From NCBI GenBank assembly GCA_013349285.1, contig DUZU01000008.1, forward strand, positions 1-64,000: DNA of 64,000 bases. The letters run 5' to 3'. This document shows, piece by piece, positions 48,520-54,160 of the stretch; position 1 is the first letter of the stretch, and each line of letters begins with the position of its first letter. The DNA comes from Deltaproteobacteria bacterium. Lineage in GTDB: Bacteria; Desulfobacterota; Desulfobulbia; Desulfobulbales; Desulfurivibrionaceae. The notes below the pieces were generated by a model. It ran no database searches. It had not been told where the DNA came from and saw only the letters and a list, made by a program, of their open reading frames with translations. Both the position numbers and the translations under genes were made by a program.

Positions 48520-48548
48520 CTGACAGACAAAAGAGAACTTGTTATAAT
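48520..48548 (+). promoter_or_regulatory. Strong sigma-70 promoter of the kinase-LysM-pentapeptide operon
   Basis: CTGACA (48520-48525, five of six) and TATAAT (48543-48548, perfect) are separated by exactly 17 bases. The start is near 48555, about 70 bases before the kinase ATG. It is the best match to the housekeeping promoter in the window. Confidence 0.75.
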
Positions 48549-48596
48549 GGCTCGTAATTTTTAAGTAATTTATTTATCGACCTATCTACTTTCTGT

Positions 48597-48610
48597 TTGT
48601 TGCGCAACAA
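48597..48610. promoter_or_regulatory. Perfect 14-base palindrome upstream of the Ser/Thr kinase gene
   Basis: TTGTTGCGCAACAA lies 16 bases before the ATG at 48626, within the predicted untranslated leader. It could be an operator that blocks elongation or an mRNA hairpin near the ribosome binding region, where no standard site is visible. Confidence 0.4.
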
Positions 48611-48625
48611 TGCGCGGATAACACC

Positions 48626-50389
48626 ATGGCCGAGTTTAAACCACAACAGTACGGTAAATTCATCCTCCTCGATCGCATCGCCCGCGGTGGAATGGCCGAA
48701 CTTTATCGAGCCAAGAGCATCGGCTCCAAGGGTTTTGAAAAACTCGTGGCCATCAAGAAAATTCTGCCCCACCTGGCCGACCAGGAAGAGTTTGTCGCCG
48801 CCTTTATCGATGAAGCCAGGCTGGCCGCCTTCCTTCAACACCATAATATCGTACAGATTTTCGACTTCGGCGAGATGGCGGGCAGCTATTTCATCTCCAT
48901 GGAGTATCTTTCCGGGTTGCCCCTGCGTACGGTCATGAACAAGGCGACCAGCAGCGGTCCCCCCTTTGACCTCCGACTCGTTTTCTACATCATTGCCCAA
49001 ATATGCGCCGGGCTCCACTATGCCCACAACCTGAAAGACTTTGCCGGCAGCCCTCTCAATATCATCCACCGGGACATGGGCCCCCAGAACATCTTCATCA
49101 CCTATGACGGCCAGGTTAAAATTATCGATTTCGGCATCGCCCGGGCGGCCAGTCATAATTCGGCGACCTCCCTGGGCTCGCTCAAGGGCAAGCTGTCGTA
49201 CATGTCACCGGAGCAGGCCGGGGGACTGGAGATAGATCACCGCTCCGATATCTTTTCCGTGGGTATCAGCCTGTATGAACTGGCCACCGGCCAGCATATG
49301 TACACCGGCGACTCTCAACAATTATTGGGGAAGGCGGCCAATGCCTCATTTACCCCGGCCCGGGAAATAAGAGAAGATCTGCCGCCGCGGCTCTACGCCA
49401 TTATCGATAAGGCCCTGGCCAGAAACCCGAACCTGCGCCACCAGTCGGCGGAGGAGATGCAGGCGGATATTGATGATTGCGCCCGGCAATACAGCAACCA
49501 GGCGACGGCCAAGGATCTGGCCTCGTTCATGGCCGAACTTTTCCGTGACGAAACAGCCCTGGAAGAGCAAGCCCTCTGTCAGGCCGCCGACATCGAACTG
49601 CCCTACCCGGAAGATGCGGCCGAAGCCACGGCCACCCTCGCCCAGGAGGAAACAATCTTTCTGCCCCTCTCTAAACCAGCCACGCCCCCCTGGCGGCTGA
49701 TCTTACTCGGCGCCCTGCTGATCACGCTAACGGCCGCCGCGTTATGGCTGCCCAAGGTCCGCGACCCCCTTGAGCATTTCCTGGTCACCCGCCTGGAGCA
49801 ATCCGGGATCATCTCGTTTCCCGCCGCCCCCTCCCACGCCACAGTGGACCAATACGCAGCGGCCAAAGCATTCTTCACCACCCTGCTTGCCGACCAAGAT
49901 CCGCCTGCCGGCGCAAGGCACCTTCCCTCACCGGATCTTGCGGAATTTGAAAAACACGCCAGCTTTCTCGTGGGCAACAAGCCGGAAGAGGCCTATGAAA
50001 TTTTAAGAAAACTTACAAAAAAATTTCCAGAGACCGCCCTGGCCCACTTCCTGCTCGGCCGCCTCTACACCTTCCGTCAACAACCAGACCGCGCCATGGA
50101 TTCCTATCTAAAAGCCACCGAGCTCGACCCAAAGCTGACCGAGGCTTTTTTTAATCTGGGCTATCTCTATGCCAAGAATAATGATTATCTCACCGCGGAA
50201 AAAATGTATACTCAGGTGATAAGGCTTGCCCCGCCGTACCGGGACGAGGCCCTGTTCAACCTGGCGATTATCAAGAAAAATCAGGGCGATAACGCCGCGA
50301 GCCTCAATTATGCCCGCCAGGCCGTGGTGGCCAACCCAAATAACCAACAGGCCGCCAAACTTATCAACCGACTTACAGAAACGCGGTAA
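48626..50389 (+). CDS. Transmembrane Ser/Thr protein kinase with TPR domain
   Basis: The product has 587 residues. The kinase domain (10-290) has a Gly-rich loop (ARGGMAELYRAK), Lys44 in VAIKK, HRDMGPQN (148-155; the usual Lys after D is Gly), DFG at 168-170 and MSPEQAGG. A transmembrane helix is at about 356-375, and the C-terminal part (about 440-587) outside the membrane carries TPRs (ALAHFLLGRLYTFRQQPDRA). Other bacteria use this layout for cell envelope signalling. It shares its stop codon with the next ATG (TAATG). Confidence 0.95.
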   Translation: MAEFKPQQYGKFILLDRIARGGMAELYRAKSIGSKGFEKLVAIKKILPHLADQEEFVAAFIDEARLAAFLQHHNIVQIFDFGEMAGSYFISMEYLSGLPLRTVMNKATSSGPPFDLRLVFYIIAQICAGLHYAHNLKDFAGSPLNIIHRDMGPQNIFITYDGQVKIIDFGIARAASHNSATSLGSLKGKLSYMSPEQAGGLEIDHRSDIFSVGISLYELATGQHMYTGDSQQLLGKAANASFTPAREIREDLPPRLYAIIDKALARNPNLRHQSAEEMQADIDDCARQYSNQATAKDLASFMAELFRDETALEEQALCQAADIELPYPEDAAEATATLAQEETIFLPLSKPATPPWRLILLGALLITLTAAALWLPKVRDPLEHFLVTRLEQSGIISFPAAPSHATVDQYAAAKAFFTTLLADQDPPAGARHLPSPDLAEFEKHASFLVGNKPEEAYEILRKLTKKFPETALAHFLLGRLYTFRQQPDRAMDSYLKATELDPKLTEAFFNLGYLYAKNNDYLTAEKMYTQVIRLAPPYRDEALFNLAIIKKNQGDNAASLNYARQAVVANPNNQQAAKLINRLTETR

Positions 50390-50814
50390 TGGATAACACG
50401 ACCCCTGCAACTTTCCCCGTAACCTGGATAACGATCATGGCTCTGCTGCTGAGCCTTTTCGGCTGCATGCACACCGGCAAAGAGAGCTGGCCGCCGGTGC
50501 AGGCCCGGCAGAAGCTGACGGTGCACGTCGTCCAGTGGCCGGGCGAAACCTTGCCGATAATTGCCCAATGGTATACCGGCAACAGCCGGAACTGGAAAGA
50601 ACTCGTCAATGCCAACCCGAATATCGTGCCCGGCCGCCTGGCGGCCGGCGATCGCATTATTGTGCCGGCCAAGCTGCTCAAAACCACCAAGATGATGCCG
50701 AAAGAATTCATGCAGCCTCTGCTCGCTCCCTCATCTCCGCAGCCATCCTCCCCCGCCGACAAGGCGCCCTCAACCCCGGATAAAGATGAATTTGAACTCT
50801 TCGGCCCTAAATAA
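50389..50814 (+). CDS. LysM-domain lipoprotein
   Basis: The product has 141 residues. A signal peptide ends in a lipobox-like LFGC, followed by a LysM domain (HVVQWPGETLPIIAQWYTGN, NWKELVNANPNI, RIIVPAK) and a Pro/Ser-rich end. It may bind peptidoglycan. It is coupled by one base to the kinase and overlaps the next gene by 29 bases. Confidence 0.88.
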   Translation: MDNTTPATFPVTWITIMALLLSLFGCMHTGKESWPPVQARQKLTVHVVQWPGETLPIIAQWYTGNSRNWKELVNANPNIVPGRLAAGDRIIVPAKLLKTTKMMPKEFMQPLLAPSSPQPSSPADKAPSTPDKDEFELFGPK

Positions 50815-52729
50815 CAACCTGAGCCGGCCCTGGTTGCCTTTGGCCGCAGCCCTTCTGCTTGCGCTGTTTTTCGGCATCTTCCGGCCGACGCCAAGCATGG
50901 GCCAGACCGGCCGCAACCAATTAAACCCAGCAGAGCTCCGGCAATTACTGCAGACCAGCCGGGTCATCTCCCACCGCAACCTCGACCGGCTCGACCTCCA
51001 CGGCTTGACGCTTAATCACCTCCGAATTGATAACTCCAGCCTGCAGCAGGTCAACCTCGAACAGTGCAAACTCAACAATGCCATCATCATTGACAGCGAT
51101 CTCCAGCAGGCCAACCTGCTCAAGGCCGATCTTTCCGGAGGTAAACTGCAAACCGTCAACCTCAACTCGGCCAGGCTTGATCACGGGGATCTCAACCGGA
51201 TCATCATCATCAAAGGCGACCTGCAAAAGGCCCAACTACGCCAAGCCAATCTCAGCGGGGCGGTCATTGCCGATAGCAACCTGACCGCCACCAACCTCCG
51301 GGGCAGCAACCTGAGCAACGCCGATCTCCGGGAGGTGCGCCTGGACCAAGCCGACCTGGCGGGCGCCGATCTCCATGGCGCCAGCCTGACCGAGGTCCAA
51401 CTGCAAAACAGTGACCTATCCCAATGCAATCTCAGCGGCGGCAACCTTCGCAACATCGACATGGGCGACCGCAACGGCAAGGGTGCCAGCCTGGTTGAGG
51501 CAAACCTCAATCACATTTTTATGCACAACGTCAATCTTGAGCGGGCGAATGGACGGGATGCCTACTTTTTTGGGGCATATCTGCAGAACTGTTCATTTAA
51601 GCAGGCTGATCTGAGCAACGCCGATCTGGACAATGTTTCTCTGATCCAAGGCAATTTCCAGGATGCGGATCTTCGTTTTACCTCCTTGGCAAACGCATCA
51701 TTAAGAGACAGCAGTTTTTCCGGGGCAAACCTCAGCGGCGCAAACCTTGCCGGCGCCGAGTTGAGCCGGAACAATATGGAAAACACCCTGCTGGTAACAG
51801 CATCTCTTCCCGACAGCAGCCTGACCGAGGTAAACCTGGACAAGGCCAACCTGACCGAAGCCGATCTGCAACGGGCGACCATTCGCGACTCCCGCCTGAA
51901 CCGAGCGGATCTCACCTCGGTTAACCTTGATAAAAGCCAACTCAGTAAAACCCAACTCAACCATGCTATCTTAAAAAATTGCCGAATGTCCGCGGCCACG
52001 CTTCAGGCGGTGGCTCTGATCGATTCTGATCTGATGGGGGCAAACCTGAGCCGCTCCTTGTTTAATGAAACCGACCTTACCGATTCCCGGCTGAGCCGGG
52101 CCGATCTCAGCCGGGCCACCTTCAACAACTCCAATCTGAAACGAGCCGAGCTCATCAACGCCGATCTCACGCAAACCAGCTTCATCAACTCAAATCTCAG
52201 CTACGCCGATCTTTCCAACGCCCTGTTAGTCAAAACCATCTTCACCGACACCCTGCTCTATGCCGCGATCTTTAAAAACGCGAGCATGGCCGAAATAAAC
52301 CTCAGCGGCCTCAACCTGCAAAACGCCGATTTGACCGGGGCGGATCTCCACAACGGCCTGTTGACCAATAGCGATCTAAGGGGCGCCATTTTAGAAAACG
52401 CCGACCTCCGCGGCTGCAACCTTGCCGGGGCCAACCTGACCAACGCGAATCTGGTCGGCGCCGATCTCACCGGCAGCATTCTCACCGGGGCGAAATTAAA
52501 TGGCGCCAACCTGAGCCGCGCCCGTCTGCAGCAGGCTAATTTACGCAACAGCATCCTCAAGTCGTGCAACTTCAACCAGGCCGACCTCAGCGGGGCCGAC
52601 CTGGAGAATGCCGATCTCAAGTACGCCGATTTCAACAACTCGATCCGCACCGGGCTCAAAAACATGGCCAAGGCCTTCAACCAAGACAAGGCCAAGGGGT
52701 TAACCGACCCCGACCCGGTCACCCCATAA
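50786..52729 (+). CDS. Large secreted pentapeptide-repeat protein
   Basis: The product has 647 residues. A signal peptide (about residues 10-35) is followed, from about residue 55 to 620, by some hundred tandem pentapeptides of A(D/N)LXX type (for example ADLAGADLHGASL, ANLSGANLAGA), broken once near 230-265 (DMGDRNGKGASLVEA). The repeat forms a right-handed quadrilateral beta-helix rod. It is coupled to the LysM lipoprotein and the TPR kinase. Small intracellular members (Qnr, MfpA) mimic DNA, but this one is exported and very long, so a scaffold or envelope role is more likely. Function unknown. Confidence 0.93.
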   Translation: MNLNSSALNNNLSRPWLPLAAALLLALFFGIFRPTPSMGQTGRNQLNPAELRQLLQTSRVISHRNLDRLDLHGLTLNHLRIDNSSLQQVNLEQCKLNNAIIIDSDLQQANLLKADLSGGKLQTVNLNSARLDHGDLNRIIIIKGDLQKAQLRQANLSGAVIADSNLTATNLRGSNLSNADLREVRLDQADLAGADLHGASLTEVQLQNSDLSQCNLSGGNLRNIDMGDRNGKGASLVEANLNHIFMHNVNLERANGRDAYFFGAYLQNCSFKQADLSNADLDNVSLIQGNFQDADLRFTSLANASLRDSSFSGANLSGANLAGAELSRNNMENTLLVTASLPDSSLTEVNLDKANLTEADLQRATIRDSRLNRADLTSVNLDKSQLSKTQLNHAILKNCRMSAATLQAVALIDSDLMGANLSRSLFNETDLTDSRLSRADLSRATFNNSNLKRAELINADLTQTSFINSNLSYADLSNALLVKTIFTDTLLYAAIFKNASMAEINLSGLNLQNADLTGADLHNGLLTNSDLRGAILENADLRGCNLAGANLTNANLVGADLTGSILTGAKLNGANLSRARLQQANLRNSILKSCNFNQADLSGADLENADLKYADFNNSIRTGLKNMAKAFNQDKAKGLTDPDPVTP

Positions 52730-52900: not shown

Positions 52901-54160
52901 ATGACACTGCAAGACGGAGTTACAAATAAAAAAATCTGGTTGCCCTTCACCATCAATATCAGCATGGTCATTCTGCTGATAATACTTGGTATTTTCATCG
53001 GCCTGTTCATCAACAACAAACGGCTGATCGAAGCGGAACTGGAAACCAGGGCCCGCTCCCACTTCAACAATATCGTTCTGACCAGACGCTGGAATGCGCA
53101 TTACGGCGGAGTATATGTTGAAAAAAAAGCAGGGGTCGCCTCTAACCCCTACCTGAAAAATCCGGATATCGTTACGGCGGACGGCACCGTCTACACCAAA
53201 AAAAATCCGGCCCTGATGACCAGGGAAATCTCGGAGTTGGCGGCAACAGAGGGGGACTATCAATTCCATATCACCAGTTTGCAGCCATTGAACCCGGCCA
53301 ACAAAGCCGACGAGTTTGAAACAAAAGCACTGAAGTTGTTCGAACAGGGTGAAAAAGAGATTTTCACCAAGGAGCGCCGCGGCGGAAAAAATATTTTCCG
53401 CTACATGGCCCCCCTATACACGGAACAAAGCTGCCTGGAGTGCCATGATCAACAGGGCTATCGGGTCGGCGACGTCCGGGGCGGCATCAGCCTTCATTTT
53501 GATATCGGTGATATTGAAAGTCTCCTGACCCACAACCGGCAGATCCTTATTATTCTCTACCTGCTAACATCGATTTTATTGCTGGGAATCATATACCTGC
53601 AGATAGCCCAACTCTTCAGAAGACTCAGGGCGGCCCAGGAACAAATAAGGCTTATGGCCATTACCGACGACCTGACCGGGCTCTACAACCGCCGCTATTT
53701 TTTCAGCAGGTTCAACACGGAAATCGCCAGATCCATTCGCCAGGACCATAGCTTGAGCCTGATTATCTTTGACCTGGACCACTTCAAAAAGGTCAATGAC
53801 ACCCATGGCCATAATGTTGGGGACATCGTCCTCAAGCAAACCGGCGCCATGCTTTATCAGAACTGTCGCAGAACCGACATTGTCGCCCGCTATGGCGGCG
53901 AGGAATTTATCATCCTGCTGCCGGACTGCGACCTGGAATGCGCCGTGCACACCGCGGAAAAACTGCGGCAGATCACCGAGAAACAAACCTTTACCGTCAA
54001 CCGCACCACCGAAATCACCATTACCGCCAGCTTCGGGGTGGCATGCTTCAGCAAGACGGACATTTCGGCGAAGGATAGCGCGGAACAACTGGTTAAGATA
54101 GCCGATCTGGCCCTGTACCGGGCCAAGGCCAAGGGCCGCAACCGGGTGGAGACCGCCTAG
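52901..54160 (+). CDS. Diguanylate cyclase with periplasmic heme c-binding sensor domain
   Basis: The product has 419 residues. TM1 is at 14-36 and TM2 at about 214-234; between them is a DUF3365/Tll0287-like sensor domain with a single CXXCH (CLECH, 178-182) in YTEQSCLECHDQQGYRVGD, which should carry covalently bound heme. The cytoplasmic GGDEF domain has an intact I-site (RRTD, 323-326) and GGEEF (332-336). It should sense redox state, oxygen or NO, and control c-di-GMP. Its upstream Fur box ties it to iron. Its end overlaps the convergent hydantoinase gene by four bases. Confidence 0.93.
   Translation: MTLQDGVTNKKIWLPFTINISMVILLIILGIFIGLFINNKRLIEAELETRARSHFNNIVLTRRWNAHYGGVYVEKKAGVASNPYLKNPDIVTADGTVYTKKNPALMTREISELAATEGDYQFHITSLQPLNPANKADEFETKALKLFEQGEKEIFTKERRGGKNIFRYMAPLYTEQSCLECHDQQGYRVGDVRGGISLHFDIGDIESLLTHNRQILIILYLLTSILLLGIIYLQIAQLFRRLRAAQEQIRLMAITDDLTGLYNRRYFFSRFNTEIARSIRQDHSLSLIIFDLDHFKKVNDTHGHNVGDIVLKQTGAMLYQNCRRTDIVARYGGEEFIILLPDCDLECAVHTAEKLRQITEKQTFTVNRTTEITITASFGVACFSKTDISAKDSAEQLVKIADLALYRAKAKGRNRVETA

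Follow-up and report, generated by a model that had tools for sequence, protein, structure and literature searches.

A three-gene operon encoding a TPR-bearing membrane kinase, a LysM lipoprotein and an exported pentapeptide-repeat rod: a candidate receptor kinase of the cell envelope

Organization of the operon

Three overlapping genes on the forward strand of the window (the whole stretch of 64,000 nucleotides that was analyzed) encode a membrane kinase, a LysM lipoprotein and an exported pentapeptide-repeat protein, referred to below as the rod. The features of the locus are as follows.

48520-48548, forward strand: promoter-like site, CTGACA-17-TATAAT, with TG before the -10 (extended -10); consensus match only
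48626-50389, forward strand: kinase gene, 587 amino acids (ORF reading)
48659-49459, forward strand: Hanks-type kinase domain, predicted cytoplasmic, residues 12-278 (Pfam Pkinase, 131.7 bits)
49697-49753, forward strand: single transmembrane segment, residues 358-376 (hydropathy 2.23)
49973-50365, forward strand: C-terminal TPR domain, predicted periplasmic, residues ~450-580 (profiles; common to the ExeA-type and transmembrane-only relatives)
50389-50814, forward strand: LysM lipoprotein gene, 141 amino acids (ORF reading)
50518-50673, forward strand: LysM domain, residues 44-95, beta-alpha-alpha-beta (profile, predicted fold, structure matches)
50786-52729, forward strand: exported pentapeptide-repeat rod gene, 647 amino acids (ORF reading and Pfam)
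50786-50902, forward strand: likely signal peptide at the N-terminus of the rod, residues ~1-39 (hydrophobic core 17-31)
50794-50811, forward strand: C-terminal motif ELFGPK of the lipoprotein; these bases are shared with the beginning of the rod gene
50966-52633, forward strand: single-register run of about 112 pentapeptides across residues 61-616, equivalent to about 28 coils (register count)
51455-51514, forward strand: non-canonical stretch of the rod, residues 224-243, around MGDRNGKGASLVEANLNH, common to the operon rods
52901-54160, forward strand: gene of a Tll0287-like and GGDEF protein, downstream of the rod (domain profiles)

The coordinates of the three genes bear out the overlaps given in the initial annotation: a single base between the kinase and lipoprotein genes (TAATG) and 29 bases between the lipoprotein and rod genes. 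The promoter, described there as near-perfect, matched 11 of the 12 consensus bases and ranked highest among 12 candidates within 6.9 kb. In the relative G004, the extended -10 element TGTTATAATGG is kept upstream of the same operon, but the -35 is not; in G004 and in the window alike, the operon comes after the end of a cation-efflux gene, and the two efflux genes match.

The rod gene of the window is separated by 171 bases from the downstream Tll0287-GGDEF gene, whose membership in the operon is uncertain. In G004, the ATG of this gene overlaps the stop codon of the rod gene (L025:4976-6244, reverse strand), and the operon there consists of four genes. A general link to c-di-GMP was considered, given this gene in the window and in G004 and the PilZ genes located upstream in L145, L148 and L141, and was rejected, the association not being general.

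The kinase and its TPR domain

The first gene product is predicted to be an active membrane-bound Ser/Thr kinase of the Hanks type, and agrees with the membrane kinase with external TPRs that had been proposed: Pfam Pkinase scored 131.7 bits, one transmembrane segment follows, and the C-terminal TPRs scored above the cut-off. The membrane topology that we infer for the system would place the kinase domain in the cytoplasm and the TPRs in the periplasm. All five catalytic residues are present, namely K44 (the VAIK Lys), E63 (the alpha-C Glu), D150 (the HRD Asp), N155 (Asn) and D168 (the DFG Asp), and they are conserved in 29 of the 30 members of the kinase family. The profile of the PASTA kinase equivalog PknB (NF033483) reached 261 bits against a cut-off of 450, and domain profiles detected no PASTA domain in the protein, the ectodomain of which is composed of TPRs.

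Two relatives showed unusual kinase genes. In L125 (2518-4413, reverse strand) the HRD Asp is replaced by Asn and the alpha-C Glu by Ala, with the TPR and LysM partner kept, and the product is probably a pseudokinase. In L031:6153-7976 the kinase and TPR parts lie in two ORFs, reflecting a frameshift, a sequencing error or a true split.

The LysM lipoprotein and its C-terminal motif

The second gene product contains the lipobox LFGC at residues 23-26, with Met at position +2, and Cys26 is invariant across a 15-row alignment. Since no Asp was found at +2 in any of the 38 members with a readable lipobox, sorting to the outer membrane is plausible, by a rule that is enterobacterial and not proven for these bacteria. 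Although the LysM domain of the window alone fell below the Pfam cut-off (17.6 versus 20.9 bits), the earlier designation as a LysM lipoprotein stands: the predicted structure is beta-alpha-alpha-beta, at a pLDDT of ~90, and was matched by Foldseek to the LysM structures 5k2l and 5ylg (TM-score to target, 0.79-0.83). The relative L044 carries three LysM copies, which pass Pfam at 39.8 bits. Going by family membership only, the domain may bind peptidoglycan, and with one LysM copy this binding could be weak.

The motif L-F/Y-G-P-K/R, or a close variant, was detected in the Pro-rich tail of 44 of the 46 members, either terminally or no more than ~30 residues from the C-terminus, while no F/Y/I-G-P occurred in the other 6,570 residues of these proteins. 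Its retention in a tail that is otherwise little conserved is a strong sign that it serves as a binding motif, and the TPR domain, as the only other constant part, would be its obvious candidate partner. Mirror-tree correlations (0.63 for LysM versus TPR and 0.79 for LysM versus the kinase domain) do not single the TPR domain out.

Two other roles for the tail were rejected. The first was that of a general C-terminal sorting tag: a search for the FGPK DNA pattern in 13 genomes gave few further matches, none of them ending lipoprotein genes, and in the genome of the window the LysM gene was the only gene ending in FGPK. The other was that of a free-carboxylate TPR ligand resembling EEVD, as many tails continue past FGP. 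Most lipoprotein partners of the ExeA-type proteins (see below) bear a further extension, ending in L-E/D-T-I-E/D. At L153:8053-10942 (reverse strand), three successive proteins, each with a terminal LysM region and an FGPK tail, adjoin a TPR protein.

Distribution of the TPR-LysM pair

Lipoprotein searches covered 258 genomes of the order and a 297-genome sample of the phylum, in which strong matches were obtained in 31 and 17 genomes, respectively. Collection of loci by kinase alignment yielded 80, most of them for unrelated kinases, and the neighborhoods, largely from draft genomes, were read with profiles. In this reading the lipoprotein gene directly follows the gene of a TPR-bearing membrane protein; it lacks a TPR neighbor in L132, L133 and L143, and some others lie at contig ends. 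A gene order limited to close relatives, which the initial annotation would have taken as speaking against its proposal, is not what the loci show. The kinase-LysM pair proved widespread across the phylum sampled: beyond the window it occurs in 29 loci, of which one has the kinase split in two ORFs and one comes from a record classified as Myxococcota, and its genes mostly overlap or abut. Only in nine genomes was the rod present as the third gene.

The place of the kinase is taken in six loci by an ExeA/GspA-type AAA protein with intact Walker motifs and in two loci by a transmembrane segment and TPRs with no enzyme domain. Because the TPR domain and the lipoprotein are kept with a kinase, with an ExeA-type ATPase or with no enzyme, they are, on this sequence comparison, the constant unit, the cytoplasmic half being exchangeable or absent. 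Their retention despite the swapped half points to a contact between TPR and LysM protein. The ExeA/GspA-type loci with a TPR ectodomain and a LysM partner (L032, L033, L127, L131, L135 and L149) possibly encode a new variant of GspA.

The kinase-LysM pair is apparently an old, widely shared and undescribed envelope-sensing module. The earlier remark that the system was not recognized from the literature can be kept in part: a literature search found no description of this three-gene set, but rod-less pairs have ties to type VI secretion (T6SS) clusters and the kinase has an architecture like that of PknS (PMC13147305).

The pentapeptide-repeat rod

The third gene product scored 345 bits with Pfam Pentapeptide and, having at least eight tandem pentapeptides, belongs to the pentapeptide repeat proteins. 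Within the single register 110 of 112 positions are hydrophobic, and the rod would be about 13 nm long if the rise per coil is ~0.48 nm; its regularity is deduced from sequence, since AlphaFold2 on the rod alone returned a mean pLDDT of 43. The N-terminal hydrophobic signal segment, in which no lipobox was found, is matched by such segments in the orthologues, and the protein is probably exported, in line with the 647-residue exported protein of the initial annotation.

The non-canonical stretch at residues 224-243 is unmatched in the other large pentapeptide protein of the genome. This second protein, of 852 amino acids, is encoded elsewhere (G000:C7, L040:4716-7274, reverse strand) and carries two Cys-rich zinc-ribbon-like motifs before a transmembrane segment; its relatives, of ~820-910 amino acids, occur across the order and are unlinked to this operon.

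A gyrase-protecting function of the Qnr/MfpA kind was rejected, given scores below the cut-offs (145 versus 240 bits for Qnr and 119 versus 360 for MfpA) and the presence of a signal peptide. The HetL equivalog profile scored 273.9 bits against a cut-off of 260, over four stretches of a long repeat protein, and likely reflects repeat inflation. HetL itself is short and cytoplasmic.

Nine genomes, from the families f1, f3 and the distant f47, contained full-length orthologues of the rod, in each case immediately downstream of the lipoprotein gene and nowhere else. In the kinase tree, the rod loci fall into one well-supported clade of ten and a separate f47 pair. Three genomes of genus g3, from the window's own family, carry the kinase-LysM pair without a rod, and as read from the tree the rod was lost in this genus, within the clade of ten. 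Because most kinase-LysM loci have no rod, the comparison marks it as an accessory, lineage-specific third gene that the kinase-LysM core does not need.

Association with type VI secretion genes

Several rod-less pairs are located beside T6SS genes, including a sheath gene (L122), VgrG (L038) and Hcp (L139), and in L147 a PP2C phosphatase, a twin-FHA protein and a sheath-like protein adjoin the pair. In eight genomes (G257, G301, G486, G393, G375, G071, G096 and G506) the sheath and lipoprotein genes lie on one contig, within ~25 kb. Recurrent neighbors in L035, L036, L037, L039, L128, L142 and L147 are a Cache/HAMP class III cyclase, a LysM polysaccharide deacetylase and a LysM/TPR lipoprotein, in some of these loci together with an FHA-GAF-HisKA protein or DUF4280.

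The sheath protein VipB was present in 14 of 21 genomes with rod-less pairs versus none of the nine with the rod (Fisher p = 0.0009, not corrected for phylogeny and resting on two rod lineages). Neither the window's genome nor the other rod genomes contained VipB and, since several of them are 98-99% complete, this absence is not due to incompleteness. FHA proteins occurred in all ten genomes tested from the window's clade and f47; the two FHA matches in the window's genome are unlinked to the operon. A PP2C phosphatase was found in eight of the nine other genomes tested and was not found in that of the window (89% complete).

A proposed mechanism and its alternatives

An envelope signaling or scaffolding system, as proposed in the initial annotation, is still the best reading of the operon, but the conserved unit is TPR plus LysM, the rod is confined to nine genomes and the kinase domain may be swapped or absent. 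More specifically, we consider, with a probability of about 0.5, that the kinase and the lipoprotein together constitute a receptor kinase spanning the envelope, to which the rod is accessory; the docking site, the ligand, the kinase activity and the role of the rod are all elements that we infer. From a probable location in the outer membrane, the LysM lipoprotein would bind the glycan of peptidoglycan and dock, perhaps via its FGPK tail, on the TPR domain that the inner-membrane kinase exposes in the periplasm. An altered spacing or state of the wall or outer membrane would change this contact and hence autophosphorylation of the kinase, and the phosphothreonine could then be read by FHA proteins encoded elsewhere. 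The rod would be a periplasmic partner gained in lineages that lack type VI secretion, and would most likely serve as a modulator or spacer of the kinase-lipoprotein complex; there, the signal of the pair would go to other targets, FHA proteins being available. The best explanation is that such a receptor would work like PpkA/TagQR (PMC10482370) or PknS (PMC13147305).

A rather improbable alternative is that the kinase-LysM pair forms a signaling unit and the rod acts in the envelope independently, linked to the pair only by a common transcript. The many kinase-LysM loci without a rod, among them the three g3 genomes of the window's family, fit such independence, whereas two findings argue against it: every full-length orthologue found follows the LysM gene immediately, across three families and two separate branches of the kinase tree, and the genes of the window overlap by 29 bases. 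Less probable still is a unit that mainly acts as a scaffold, using the wall to assemble or position a machine of the envelope in the way that ExeA/ExeB assemble a secretin, with the kinase domain as a regulatory extra. The six loci with an ExeA/GspA-type ATPase, the two with no enzyme and the presence of rod-less pairs in T6SS clusters would suit a scaffold, but the catalytic site is fully conserved in most members, no secretin or pilus genes were noticed beside the pairs, and the rod genomes are without the T6SS sheath gene. That last absence, set against the frequency of VipB in rod-less genomes, would also be expected if the operon were a decaying relic of a type VI secretion system since lost. 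We regard this as very improbable: the rod clade has retained the catalytic residues, the tail and the LysM core, the gain of a third gene is not decay, and the f47 rod lineage is separate.

The split receptor kinase, if correct, would add to the few known routes by which the state of the wall or outer membrane is reported to Ser/Thr kinases in Gram-negative bacteria, and can be tested directly, the receptor being conserved, made of two proteins and equipped with a clear candidate for the docking motif. In these lineages the pair may also be the sensor, missing until now, that acts upstream when type VI secretion is controlled through threonine phosphorylation, and the rod offers a natural example for asking what role pentapeptide-repeat proteins have once exported. 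We further suggest, tentatively and with less confidence than in the receptor itself, that TPR plus the FGPK-tailed LysM lipoprotein may be a general, exchangeable unit coupling wall to cytoplasm across the phylum, with a kinase, an ExeA-type ATPase or nothing as its output; L-F/Y-G-P-K/R would then be a new docking motif, and the rod, gained in T6SS-less lineages, would gauge or set envelope spacing.

Comparison with known systems

In its architecture, the kinase resembles PknS of Xanthomonas citri, likewise a Hanks-type kinase with one transmembrane region and C-terminal periplasmic TPRs. The periplasmic TPR domain of PknS modulates phosphorylation and appears to restrain it, and the gene lies in a T6SS cluster, as do many of the rod-less relatives; PknS acts on the sigma factor EcfK, and the available part of its report describes no LysM lipoprotein or rod (PMC13147305). 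In the T6SS threonine phosphorylation pathway PpkA-TagQ-TagR-Fha-PppA, a membrane Ser/Thr kinase similarly has an outer-membrane lipoprotein and a periplasmic protein upstream, and the FHA reader and PP2C phosphatase have counterparts beside the rod-less pair of L147. In contrast to that pathway, the ectodomain here consists of TPRs, the lipoprotein carries a LysM domain, a pentapeptide rod is the third protein, and T6SS sheath genes are absent from the window's clade (PMC10482370).

The PASTA kinases PknB, StkP and PrkC provide the closest solved kinase domains by sequence and share the idea of wall sensing, but the wall-binding part is here on a separate lipoprotein and there is no PASTA domain. 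ExeA/GspA with ExeB/GspB have an ATPase and a peptidoglycan contact in common with the six relatives, while the window's protein is a kinase and no secretin was noticed adjacent to it (PMC4098917, PMC9239104).

The rod, like YjbI and Rfr32, is predicted to combine a signal peptide with a quadrilateral beta-helix in the envelope, but at ~28 coils it is far longer and its gene is in an operon with that of a Ser/Thr kinase (PMC12864828, PMC8145042). Its six cysteines are scattered, unlike those of YjbI, which are paired at two ends (PMC12864828). The exported YjbI silences or dampens two envelope-stress two-component systems in Caulobacter (PMC12864828) and would, by analogy, be the nearest functional precedent for the rod.
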